A DNA stretch of 48,059 bases from Actinomycetales bacterium (GTDB lineage: Bacteria; Actinomycetota; Actinomycetes; S36-B12). The stretch is taken from NCBI GenBank assembly GCA_018970765.1, contig JAGWVT010000011.1:1-48059 (forward strand), read 5' to 3'. Each line of letters opens with the position of its first letter. Position 1 is the first letter of the stretch. Positions 18,466 to 48,059 of the stretch are shown in pieces. The position numbers and the translations under genes are program-made. Below the pieces are notes generated by a model, which was given only the letters and a program-made list of their open reading frames with translations, was not told the origin of the DNA and did not search any database.

Positions 18466-19770
18466 CTACGCCGCCGCGGTCGCAGTCGCCAAGGTGGCAC
18501 GCAGCCACCTGGCTGCAATGGAGGCCACGGAGTCCAGGGTGCCGAATTCCTCGAACAGATGCGAAGCCCCAGGCACCACGGTCATGTCGACGGGGCAATG
18601 CATCTGGTCACGCGCCTGCTGGTTTAGTTCCAAGACCGATTCGTCACGCTCACCGACGATCAGCAGCGTTGGGCAGCGCACTCGGCCCAGCGCAAGCCCC
18701 GCTAGGTCTGGGCGACCGCCACGACTAACGATGGCGCGAATGGGCGGAGAGCAATCCACGGCTGCGACTAAGGCCGCTGCAGCCCCCGTGGAAGCACCAA
18801 AGTAGGCGAAGGGTACGTGGCGAAGCGAGCCCTGGGTGCCAAGCCAGGTCGTTGCGGCACGCAATCTTCCGGCAAGCAGTGGAACATCGAAAACCTGTGA
18901 GCGATGCCTCGCCTCCTGATCAGTCAGGAGGTCGAAAAGCAGCGTGGCGAATCCGGCCTCATGCAGGATGTCGGCAACTGCGCGATTTCTTGGACTCAGA
19001 CGACTGCTACCGCTGCCGTGCGCGAAGATCACGGCGCCCCGCGGCTGGGAGGGACTGAACAGGTGCCCGGACAACAACACGTCACGAAGACCGTCAGCAT
19101 GAATGGGAATGATCACCTCCCTGTCGACAGCGGTGTGTAACAGGCGCACGACCTCGTCATCGGTCACCTGCGTGAAGTCCTGGTAGTGCTCTCCCACGGC
19201 GATGAAGTCCTCGGGCTGCTCAACAGTGATGACTTCGTCGGCAACTTCACGCAGCACCCTGATTGCATCGGTCGAAGCTGTTGGTGCTGCCACGATGACG
19301 CGCTCAGCGCCTAACTTTCGAAGGACAGCCACCGCAACGCGTGCCGTTGAGCCGGTTGCCATGCCATCATCAACGAGGATCACCTGGCGTCCCCGCAGAA
19401 CTGGAAGATCTCGCCCATGACGGTACTGCTGAATCCTGCGACTCAGCTCCGCTTCCTGGGTAGCAATAATGCGGTCCAACTCTACGTCTGAAATCCCGAG
19501 ACGCTGGCGCAGATGCTCGTCGATGATCGTGACAACTTGCTCTCCGTCGGCACCCGGCTCGCCGATGGCGCCAAATCCGAACTCCGGCTGAAAGGGGGCG
19601 CCCAGTTTGCGGACGATAAGAACATCCATTGGTGCCTCCAGCATGCTTGCTACTTCCCAGGCCACCGGCACTCCCCCACGAGGTAGTGCCAACACGACTG
19701 GCGACTCCAAACGGAGGCTGGCAAGTGCGCGCGCTAGGCGCTGTCCGGCTTCAAATCTGTCGATGAACAT
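18466..19770 (-). CDS. Phosphoribosyltransferase fused to dienelactone-hydrolase-type alpha/beta hydrolase
   Basis: 434 residues from the ATG at 19770 (AGGA upstream); an open frame extends to 19905 but would run over the divergent gene. Residues 1-215 form a type I phosphoribosyltransferase domain, with PRGGVPVAWEVA near 30-41 and the PRPP loop ILVDDGMATGST at 131-142. Residues about 220-434 form an alpha/beta hydrolase with oxyanion-region FAHGSGSS, nucleophile Ser327 in GASTG, acid Asp376 in GERDES and His404 in GASHLF. Predicted phosphoribosyltransferases of this kind are known beside or fused to hydrolases in soil bacteria and mycobacteria, but their substrate is unsettled. It shares a 123-bp divergent promoter region with the erythromycin-esterase-like gene. 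Confidence 0.88.
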   Translation of the reverse strand: MFIDRFEAGQRLARALASLRLESPVVLALPRGGVPVAWEVASMLEAPMDVLIVRKLGAPFQPEFGFGAIGEPGADGEQVVTIIDEHLRQRLGISDVELDRIIATQEAELSRRIQQYRHGRDLPVLRGRQVILVDDGMATGSTARVAVAVLRKLGAERVIVAAPTASTDAIRVLREVADEVITVEQPEDFIAVGEHYQDFTQVTDDEVVRLLHTAVDREVIIPIHADGLRDVLLSGHLFSPSQPRGAVIFAHGSGSSRLSPRNRAVADILHEAGFATLLFDLLTDQEARHRSQVFDVPLLAGRLRAATTWLGTQGSLRHVPFAYFGASTGAAAALVAAVDCSPPIRAIVSRGGRPDLAGLALGRVRCPTLLIVGERDESVLELNQQARDQMHCPVDMTVVPGASHLFEEFGTLDSVASIAARWLRATLATATAAA

Positions 19771-46584: not shown

Positions 46585-47742
46585 GTGCGCTCCGGCCGAA
46601 GTATCTGGCCTGCTGCCTTGCTTTGCCTGGTTGCTGCAAGCATTCAGCCGGCGTATGCCACTGCACACATGCCCATGGTGCGGGTGGTCAACGGCTGCTC
46701 ACTGCAAGCAGGTGCGATTTGTCCGAACTGGAACTTCACCAACCAGCAGTTCACAAATGAGAATCTGCACTCTGTCGACCTCAAAGGCTCAGACTTCTCA
46801 GTGTCCCGCTTCACTGGGGTGATCTTTCATAATGCCTCGCTAAGCAACTCCGTCATGATCTTGACTGAGCATAAGAACACGGATTTTCGAGATGCAGCCT
46901 TGATCGGTTCCAACTTTTCATCCGCAACACTCGAGGGGGCTTCGTTTTTGGGATCTACGCTTACCGATGCAAAGTTTGCATCGGTAACAATGACCAATGT
47001 GACGAGCTTTTCGGCTCAATGGACTAGAACCAATTTTTCCGATTCAACAATTTTCTCCAGTTCTTTTCGCAGCGTCGACTTATCCGATAGTCGCTTCGAG
47101 AAGGCACAAATTGGCGCATCCAATTTCAGTCAAAGCACGCTCTTGCAAGTAAACTTCCGACAAGCAAAGATCTTTGATGCGTCAAGCTTCTCCGAGTCAC
47201 GCTTGGATCACAGCGATTTCGCTGATTCGGTGATGACTGATGTTGACTTTTCGGATGCCTTGCTGCCCGCGACGATCCTCTCCGGAAGTTCACTGTCGAA
47301 AGTTGATTTCACCGGCAGTGACATAACGGGCGGGTACATGATCGGGGTGACCTCACGCGAGGGAGAGTTTGCTGAAGCGACCATGAACGGTACCGATTTC
47401 ACTGCTTCAGATTTCAGTACGCCTGACTTGGGTGTCCAAGCACGAAACGATTTCACCAAGGCGTACCTTCGCGCAGCCAACTTTACCGATGCAAATCTGA
47501 CGTCTGCGTGGTTCGCAGGCGCAGACCTCACTGGTTCGAATTTCACCGGCGCAAAGGTTTCCGGCGCTAACTTTGCGGGCGCAGACCTTCGCGGCGTCAC
47601 CCTGCCCCAGGATGCCTTCGACACGCGTGGCCGGCCACGATTCACATGTGATCGCAATACGAAGCGGGACGGCGCTCTGCGCACTCAGTTACGGCGCTTT
47701 TGCAAGGGTGTACGCAACGTGATCTACCTGCAGGCAAAGTAG
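46585..47742 (+). CDS. Secreted pentapeptide-repeat protein
   Basis: 385 residues from a GTG at 46585. A signal peptide (SIWPAALLCLVAASIQPAYA) is followed by a short Cys-containing stretch (NGCSLQAGAICPNW) and then some 50 pentapeptide repeats of A(D/N)LxX type, for example NLHSVDLKGSDF and ADLTGSNFTGAKVSGANFAGADL, which fold as a right-handed quadrilateral beta-helix. A basic C-terminal tail with two Cys (FTCDRNTKR and FCKG) follows. Base composition is lower in GC than neighbouring genes and the repeats are unusually rich in Ser, Thr and Phe, so recent acquisition or rapid evolution is possible. Secretion argues against a gyrase-protecting Qnr/MfpA role. Function unknown. Confidence 0.88.
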   Translation: MRSGRSIWPAALLCLVAASIQPAYATAHMPMVRVVNGCSLQAGAICPNWNFTNQQFTNENLHSVDLKGSDFSVSRFTGVIFHNASLSNSVMILTEHKNTDFRDAALIGSNFSSATLEGASFLGSTLTDAKFASVTMTNVTSFSAQWTRTNFSDSTIFSSSFRSVDLSDSRFEKAQIGASNFSQSTLLQVNFRQAKIFDASSFSESRLDHSDFADSVMTDVDFSDALLPATILSGSSLSKVDFTGSDITGGYMIGVTSREGEFAEATMNGTDFTASDFSTPDLGVQARNDFTKAYLRAANFTDANLTSAWFAGADLTGSNFTGAKVSGANFAGADLRGVTLPQDAFDTRGRPRFTCDRNTKRDGALRTQLRRFCKGVRNVIYLQAK

Positions 47743-47751
47743 CGCTACCCG

Positions 47752-47922
47752 CTAGCCAAATAGGCGCCCCAAAAAGGTTTGCTTTCGCGCCGCGTCCTTT
47801 TGAGCCTGGGTGCAGGCGCACCGTTCGTTCTTGGGGATGCCCCGCAAAACTTCGTTCTTGTGTTGCCCGCAACCGGTCCAGGTTGCCTTCTTGCAGACCT
47901 TGCAGGTCGTTTGCTGACACAT
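47752..47922 (-). CDS. 56-residue Cys-rich protein, probably metal-binding
   Basis: 56 residues from the ATG at 47922, strongly supported by GAGGAG 7 bases upstream. Six cysteines: Cys2, Cys7 and Cys10 (CKVC), Cys18 (GCGQH, with His21), then Cys35 and Cys37 (CAC), followed by a charged helix and the tail FLGRLFG. The CxxC...CGxH pattern resembles a small zinc-ribbon-like family that I recall as common in bacteria without known function. A CsoR/CstR-type palindrome lies 40-57 bp upstream of the start, so copper or persulfide control is possible. Cytoplasmic. Confidence 0.85.
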   Translation of the reverse strand: MCQQTTCKVCKKATWTGCGQHKNEVLRGIPKNERCACTQAQKDAARKQTFLGRLFG

Positions 47923-47961
47923 GTGCGTTCTCCTCACTCTCCGCTTTCCAATGACCTCTTT

Positions 47962-47979
47962 TATACCCCCTGGGGTATA
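47962..47979. promoter_or_regulatory. CsoR/CstR-like operator
   Basis: TATACCCCCTGGGGTATA has perfect 8-bp arms around a CT centre. It matches the ATACCCC-NN-GGGGTAT form known for operators of the CsoR/RcnR/CstR family (copper, nickel/cobalt or persulfide sensors). It lies in the 65-bp gap between the partial gene at the right edge and the 56-residue Cys-rich gene, 40 bp upstream of the latter's start, where a promoter would be. The two-base centre and lack of a T-run argue against a terminator. Confidence 0.7.
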
Positions 47980-47987
47980 CGACACCC

Positions 47988-48059
47988 TTACTCCCACACC
48001 TCGAGGTCTTCGTGGATGACTTGGCCGGAAAGGAGGGCGTTGATGTGCTCGGGCAGGGT
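47988..48059 (-). CDS. C-terminal end of an unidentified protein (5' part outside window)
   Basis: Read on the minus strand, the last 72 bases are open and end in TAA at 47988-47990, giving a C terminus ending ...NALLSGQVIHEDLEVWE. Too short to identify. It lies upstream of, and in the same direction as, the Cys-rich gene, with the CsoR-like operator between the two. Confidence 0.6.
   Translation of the reverse strand, partial: TLPEHINALLSGQVIHEDLEVWE

Follow-up and report, generated by a model that had tools for sequence, protein, structure and literature searches.

A cysteine-rich mini-protein gene behind a perfect palindrome

The window analysed here, a stretch of 48,059 nucleotides, is the whole of one contig from the 2.96-Mb draft genome, 96% complete, of an Actinomycetales bacterium. 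Close to its right-hand end, the minus strand encodes a 56-residue protein whose translation contains six cysteines (C2, C7, C10, C18, C35 and C37). The gene and the elements around it are as follows:

47752..47922, minus strand: gene for the 56-residue Cys-rich protein, long type, read as an open reading frame (stop codon 47752-47754, ATG 47922-47920)
47930..47935, minus strand: probable ribosome-binding site GAGGAG, from the sequence
47960..47965, minus strand: probable -10 element TATAAA, from the sequence, overlapping the downstream arm of the operator
47962..47979, no strand: predicted CstR-type operator TATACCCCCTGGGGTATA, from the sequence and from conservation of its core upstream of family genes of the order
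47988..48059, minus strand: 3' end of the upstream gene, which runs off the contig (stop codon 47990-47988)

Read along the minus strand, the end of the upstream gene (47988) is followed by TATACCCCAGGGGGTATA (47979-47962), TATAAA, GAGGAG (47935-47930) and the ATG (47922). Because the upstream gene is on the minus strand like the 56-residue gene, the operator lies between two genes that run in the same direction. The frame of the small gene stays open still further upstream of this ATG, yet GAGGAG precedes the codon. Comparison with seven orthologues gave dN values of 0.11-0.16, with dS of 1.4, 3.8 and 3.8 for three of them and saturated for four, and 44 aligned codons held 1-5 second-position against 19-24 third-position differences. 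The open reading frame is a real gene under strong purifying selection. Named relatives matched by the protein are uncultured Actinomycetota, including Candidatus Nanopelagicales. Convergent with the gene is one for a 385-residue pentapeptide-repeat protein (window 46585-47742, plus strand; PF00805, E 1.3e-36).

The initial annotation had placed a palindrome ahead of the six-cysteine protein, and it is there: TATACCCC-CT-GGGGTATA at 47962-47979 is a perfect 8+8 inverted repeat with a 2-nt spacer, 39 nt before the ATG. Within the window it is the sole place found at up to three mismatches. Its 16-mer core, ATACCCCnnGGGGTAT, has 2 zero-mismatch sites in the 2.96-Mb genome (reversed control, 0) and 7 places at up to two mismatches (reversed control, 1). 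The palindrome is far from chance. Compared with published operators, it shows the type 2 CsoR/CstR pattern, a TAC/GTA inverted repeat around G/C tracts.

The palindrome is conserved upstream of orthologous genes

A search of 146 genomes, the window's own included, returned a family match in 119. Upstream regions within the order were counted only where they reached at least 120 nt, and genes with shorter ones were dropped, which left 93. The operator core lies within 120 nt of the gene in 67 of these 93 at up to two mismatches (66 at up to one, 51 perfect), and 26 have none. The initial annotation had called the palindrome a CsoR/CstR-type operator and named its presence upstream of orthologues as a test; conservation before these 67 genes bears the assignment out. 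Letter-shuffled upstream regions contained the core in 0 of 930 cases. Control windows elsewhere in the same loci contained it, with at most one mismatch, in 20 of 815, probably because neighbouring operators of the same loci were included.

The median distance from the start of the core to the start codon is 57 nt. In 41 of the 67 operators an A follows the core, and two bases on a T stands in 53, giving GGGGTATAnT. The consensus for the order, tATACCCCc.GGGGTATAnT, thus has the right arm of the operator built into the -10 box. Upstream sequence differs among the orthologues, yet the palindrome is conserved there and overlaps their -10 elements. At the level of the taxonomic family, 52 of 59 genomes have the perfect 16-mer and 7 lack a perfect site, while the reversed control occurs in none of the 59.

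One small-genome family (f6) departs from this arrangement, with no palindrome directly upstream in 8 of 10 copies read. At two mapped loci, L156 and L157, the gene belongs to an operon that also contains rhodanese and cstR, with the palindrome ahead of the operon's first gene. The order in L156 is rhodanese, family gene, rhodanese, cstR, the rhodaneses having been called by eye.

Apparently broken family copies were also seen. Loci L041 and L043 (G072:C55:5233-5394 and G041:C22:334-495) each have a perfect operator followed by a copy that lacks a start codon at position 1 and whose frame ends early. A second family match in the first of these genomes, G072:C55:7228-7386, has a stop inside it, as judged from the match row.

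A single CsoR-family regulator of the predicted CstR class

Whether the genome has a CsoR-family protein was a further test named in the initial annotation, and one such match is found in the draft, on contig C67 (L002:489-749; PF02583, E 2.8e-22, 81.5 bits, over the cut-off). Both of its sensing positions are Cys, and Gly takes the place of the copper-group His (C-G-C, against C-H-C in the copper group). We read 71 CsoR-family proteins from this genome and its relatives: 39, this one included, are C-x-C and 32 are C-H-C, and the score to the window organism's regulator splits the two sets cleanly, with a clear gap. Its best sequence match in the PDB is the sequence of 7mq1/7mq2, deposited as 'copper-sensing transcriptional repressor csoR'; 7MQ2 is called a CstR in PMC9774590. 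Judged by these residues and scores, the genome's single CsoR-family regulator is assigned to the CstR class, and by class it would sense persulfide. The company and targets of CstR-class genes in these genomes are rhodanese, persulfide dioxygenase-type and sulfide enzymes. In the window's genome, a pair of genes for rhodanese and thioredoxin converges on the regulator gene and has a separate palindrome copy, TATACCCCTAGGGGTATT.

No copper-class (Cys-His-Cys) regulator was found in the draft, which at 96% completeness may have missed a copper CsoR. None of the genome's P-type ATPase matches reaches the copper-ATPase cut-off, and their contigs are not those of the operators. In 93.5 kb of copper-class sequence, made up of 30 loci of roughly 3 kb, the 16-mer does not occur at up to two mismatches. 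Among the matches listed, 105 genomes have a family match, 95 a low-score and 50 a high-score regulator, the classes being divided at a bit score of 86, a cut that puts at least one copper-class protein (L182, 85.4) on the wrong side. On the same matches, 73 genomes have both a family gene and a low-score (CstR-class) gene, and in 22 of them the two are no more than 5 kb apart; for high-score (copper-class) genes this is so in 0 of 36 genomes.

Since the operator of the Streptomyces lividans copper CsoR is almost identical, DNA alone does not decide between copper and persulfide, and the persulfide assignment rests on regulator class and gene company. The initial annotation had left the choice open between a copper and a persulfide sensor. 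Support is good for the persulfide half, given the CstR-class regulator and the gene company, and was not found for the copper half, given the missing His ligand and the absence of an operator from the contigs of the ATPase matches, all of them below the copper-ATPase cut-off. A metallochaperone role, which it had also suggested, finds no support, since the Cu(I) His ligand is absent from the one CsoR-family protein found in the draft. We consider it strongly supported that the palindrome is a CsoR/CstR-type operator and the predicted target of the genome's CstR-class regulator.

Genes of sulfur metabolism share the operator

Besides the 56-residue gene, the operators of the window's genome precede a thioredoxin-rhodanese gene (both with 0 mismatches in the 16-mer), a gene for a 479-residue metallo-beta-lactamase-fold/rhodanese protein of the persulfide dioxygenase type (1 mismatch) and, in a weaker form, cstR itself (2 mismatches). 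For the 479-residue protein, no NCBIfam model reached its cut-off. Three other places have 2 mismatches each and may be chance: two fall within genes, and the third precedes, by about 40 nt, a gene called peptidase-like by eye. In the window's genome, we saw no sulfur gene next to the 56-residue gene; the csoR, cstR or rhodanese company for which the initial annotation would have looked is found elsewhere in the genome, with operators before rhodanese and persulfide dioxygenase-type genes.

In relatives, we took loci around one perfect site each from 29 genomes and scored them for the family and for a sulfur set made up of persulfide dioxygenase-type, CoA-disulfide-reductase-type/rhodanese, rhodanese, cstR, thioredoxin and SLAC1/TDT-type transporter genes. 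A sulfur or family gene is present in 27 of the 29. The family gene itself is in 11, one of them (L280) being the broken copy of G041. At the other two loci, perfect operators precede genes for a DCC1-like thiol oxidoreductase (L299, 1093-1491 minus, PF04134; L300, near 1501, by eye), which is probably a further member of the persulfide regulon. Of 75 perfect sites listed, at least 19 have a listed family gene directly behind them and another 3 a listed CsoR-family gene, and 53 have no assignment among the matches listed.

Two further kinds of gene recur near operators. PIG-L type deacetylase genes lie beside an operator at L161 (8856-9671, weakly matched by BshB, MshB and Mca models), L162 (5793-6467) and L011 (7688-8114), the latter two called by eye; they possibly link the regulon to a low-molecular-weight thiol. 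A small membrane protein with FFAVGCPVCNKL, weakly MerT-like and without a family name, is encoded at L010 (231-704), L011 (2318-2791) and L157 (3899-4360). Its gene is divergent from a SLAC1/TDT-type transporter over the operator in L010 and L011, and by eye lies within the cstR operon in L157.

Two types of one protein family

The protein occurs in two types. The long type, which includes the window protein, is mostly 52-64 residues within the order and ends in a conserved FFxRxFG-like C-terminal tail, kept down to Hoyosella. The short type, of 38-44 residues, is the core alone, with no tail. Seven fetched loci hold two family copies on opposite strands, and five of these pair a copy of 52-57 residues with one of 38-39. 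All 14 copies at these loci have a perfect core within 120 nt, either their own or apparently shared (L067, L076, L095). In L144 and L150, cstR lies between the two copies.

We searched frames of up to 110 residues, a range without long C-terminal fusions, with a pattern that fixed T/S/N14, an aromatic residue at 15, G17, G19 and H21 and no cysteine. It gave 145 distinct hits. ATG or GTG at position 1 together with C2, C7, C10 and C18 is found in 143, none of which has an N-terminal extension; the two hits without a start codon there are a false frame (L076) and a broken copy (L041). After C18 the 143 continue with CxC (131) or CxxH (12), so that C37 alternates with H38. H21, being part of the pattern, is not tested by this count; in 35 aligned rows it is invariant. 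C35 is conserved alongside C2, C7, C10 and C18, and so are W/Y/F15, G17, G19, P30 and a fixed spacing.

Models of both types predict a beta-hairpin of strands 3-6 and 13-16 with C7-C10 in the turn (mean pLDDT 80.7 and 85.0; pTM 0.51 and 0.50). A fold search with the two models returned nothing significant in the PDB, a result with no bearing on fold novelty, and the best hit of a sequence search of the PDB (E 0.15) is at the level of chance. Up to E 1, nothing in Pfam or NCBIfam matched the window protein, and a short-type and a CxxH member likewise had no match in Pfam.

The exchange of C37 for H38 suggests a metal ligand. On the conserved residues, a metal (zinc) site of C7, C10, C35 and C37 or H38 is probable, which would make this a zinc-finger-like protein, and C2, C18 and H21 are likely to form its chemical end. 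If strands 3-6 and 13-16 pair antiparallel, their register would bring C2 and C18 close together. With a Met-Cys start and the usual removal of Met, the mature protein would begin with Cys.

The family in the phylum, on plasmids and in a phage record

With a profile of both types, the family was found in 36 of 296 genomes of the phylum, the window's own included. Within about 6 kb, 18 of 37 phylum regions (38 family genes) hold a gene of the sulfur set and 16 a CsoR-family gene, and none of 20 control windows 60 kb away holds a sulfur-set gene. Fifteen of the 16 regulators are readable (that of L216 is not), and all are C-x-C, as are three plasmid regulators. The other 19 of the 37 regions have no gene of the sulfur set, and outside the order a strict operator precedes 5 of the 38 family genes. 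The association of the family with sulfur genes across the phylum is real and not universal. Because operators are sparse outside the order and these 19 regions lack a sulfur gene, the role of the family may be wider.

Plasmid records with the family number 67 with the long query and 76 with the short query, from 72,556. The genera named are all actinobacterial, with two (long) and one (short) records carrying no genus name, and include Rhodococcus, Clavibacter, Arthrobacter, Curtobacterium and others. Among the 40 plasmid rows listed, 34 have no listed gene over the family match, in a gene table that is incomplete. On plasmids of Arthrobacter sp. YC-RL1, R. qingshengii TG-1 and R. jostii RHA1, the family stands among MBL-fold hydrolase, TauE and DUF302 genes and near a 'metal-sensitive transcriptional regulator' that is C-x-C; a rhodanese is also near it in YC-RL1 and RHA1. 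The RHA1 gene, RHA1_RS51140, has a perfect 16-mer 60 nt ahead of it, an arrangement similar to that of the window. In that same incomplete table, the family gene of the YC-RL1 and TG-1 plasmids has no listed annotation. A full-length, unannotated member with 41% identity was also seen at 19139-19297 of MT835623.1 (L310), an UNVERIFIED 'Bacteriophage sp.' human fecal scaffold.

Discussion

We propose that the single CstR-class repressor binds the palindrome over the -10 box and so keeps the 56-residue gene off. Sulfane sulfur, as persulfides or polysulfides, would modify the two cysteines of the repressor, which would then leave the operator. Release by persulfide was shown for ScCsoR of S. coelicolor (PMC7533328), and by analogy we infer it for the window organism. 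The small gene would then be expressed together with those for the thioredoxin-rhodanese, the persulfide dioxygenase-type/rhodanese fusion and cstR. In its product, zinc at C7, C10, C35 and C37/H38 would hold the fold, and a pair of exposed thiols, on N-terminal C2 and on C18 close to H21, would accept, pass on or hold sulfane sulfur, with rhodanese, dioxygenase and CoA-disulfide-reductase-type enzymes as its partners. For zinc binding we go by the sequence and the secondary structure of the models, for the carrier step by the regulon.

Taken as a whole, this account of a CstR-repressed, persulfide-induced, zinc-finger-like thiol protein that handles sulfane sulfur is in our judgement likely to be right. 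Its regulatory part, persulfide/CstR control of the 56-residue gene, we hold with high confidence. That the mini-protein has a role in sulfane-sulfur handling is reasonably probable, and the sulfur-trafficking role suggested by the initial annotation is compatible with all the findings. The specific reading as a sulfur carrier is tentative. Actinobacteria use mycothiol rather than glutathione. Equally tentative is the broader suggestion that this phylum-wide family, whose members measure about 37 to 75 residues and start with Met-Cys in 143 of the 145 hits, represents a new class of protein sulfur carrier in actinobacteria. Once Met is removed, an N-terminal Cys and a second thiol on a zinc-held hairpin might then shuttle sulfane sulfur among sulfide-oxidising, rhodanese and dioxygenase enzymes in mycothiol-using organisms.

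Two other readings accept the same persulfide regulon and give the protein a different job. It could be a metallothionein-like metal buffer or zinc store, not a sulfur carrier, that holds metal while persulfide or sulfide strips or precipitates zinc or copper during stress. Seven conserved potential ligands lie within the first 38 residues, the C37 to H38 exchange fits a metal ligand better than it fits thiol chemistry, and no known domain matched in Pfam/NCBIfam. However, the fixed spacing, W/Y/F15, G17, G19, P30 and the predicted hairpin argue for a structured protein and not a flexible metallothionein, and the frequent company of rhodaneses and persulfide dioxygenase-type genes also speaks against a buffer, which we regard as rather doubtful. 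It is unlikely, too, that the protein is a regulatory adaptor which, once persulfide has opened its zinc site, binds to a partner, with the conserved C-terminal FFxRxFG tail of the long type as one candidate contact. A zinc site that opens on persulfide reaction is reported for PerR in the title of PMC9952342. Such an adaptor would fit a tail conserved in the long type and missing from the short type, with long and short copies side by side in some genomes as if one core had two uses; but no partner is known, no DNA-binding domain was found in the protein, and the short 38-residue type is the core only.

The remaining readings concern the palindrome itself. A copper CsoR could read it, the protein then being a copper chaperone or scavenger, since the sequence is nearly identical to the S. 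lividans copper CsoR operator and copper-class CsoR genes are present in many relatives. Against this stand the missing His ligand in the genome's only CsoR-family protein found, the absence of the 16-mer from the 93.5 kb of copper-class loci, ATPase matches that all fall below the copper-ATPase cut-off on contigs without an operator, and, among the matches listed, the 0 of 36 genomes with a family gene near a high-score gene; we judge it very improbable. As for a terminator of the upstream gene, behind whose stop codon the palindrome directly lies, we rejected it: no T-run follows, and the loop is 2 nt. Conservation before orthologues in differing upstream sequence, overlapping their -10, speaks against terminator and chance alike and makes both scarcely credible.

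CstR-type control of the mini-protein, the reading we favour, has relatives among known systems. The CstR targets of Staphylococcus aureus are a rhodanese and a persulfide dioxygenase-rhodanese, and to our knowledge its cst operon has no counterpart of the mini-protein. TusA/DsrE-type carriers pass on sulfane sulfur; their folds are larger, and the likeness to the mini-protein lies in the proposed job, the relay of sulfane sulfur. MymT of Mycobacterium tuberculosis is a small Cys-rich metallothionein under the CsoR-family regulator RicR. The sequence patterns of MymT and other bacterial metallothioneins are not known to match that of the mini-protein family.

The closest likeness is to ScCsoR (SCO0620) of S. 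coelicolor, a two-Cys repressor that answers sulfane sulfur at the palindrome ATACCn6GGTAT and targets a persulfide dioxygenase-rhodanese, a sulfite transporter and a rhodanese (PMC7533328). The system described here likewise has a two-Cys CsoR-family repressor, a similar palindrome and persulfide dioxygenase/rhodanese targets. No small Cys-rich protein is named in that description of the four-gene ScCsoR circuit, whereas in the order studied here the mini-protein gene is frequently operator-bearing, and thioredoxin, CoA-disulfide-reductase-type/rhodanese, SLAC1/TDT-type transporter and DCC1-like protein genes are further targets. CstR of the S. aureus cst operon is likewise described as a persulfide-sensing CsoR-family repressor (PMC9774590). 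By contrast, the copper CsoR of S. lividans, with nearly the same operator sequence as the window's (ATATACCCCTNAGGGGTATAT, type 2, a TAC/GTA inverted repeat with G-tracts), is described as copper-responsive, with copZA and csoR as targets (PMC3902906). In actinobacteria, ATACCCCnnGGGGTAT calls for a look at the regulator before it is taken for a copper site.

The regulatory circuit is already known, a CstR-type regulon like those of S. coelicolor and S. aureus. The novelty lies in the mini-protein family, which often belongs to such a regulon; among the matches listed in open PubMed Central papers, no title or abstract beginning was on this family. An unnamed small protein can thereby be added, as a component with a proposed role, to a known sulfur-detoxification system. 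The enzymes of persulfide defence are known, and the movement of sulfane sulfur between them in actinobacteria is a gap that the mini-protein might fill. Often operator-bearing, present in two types and easy to test, it is a candidate for the missing piece.
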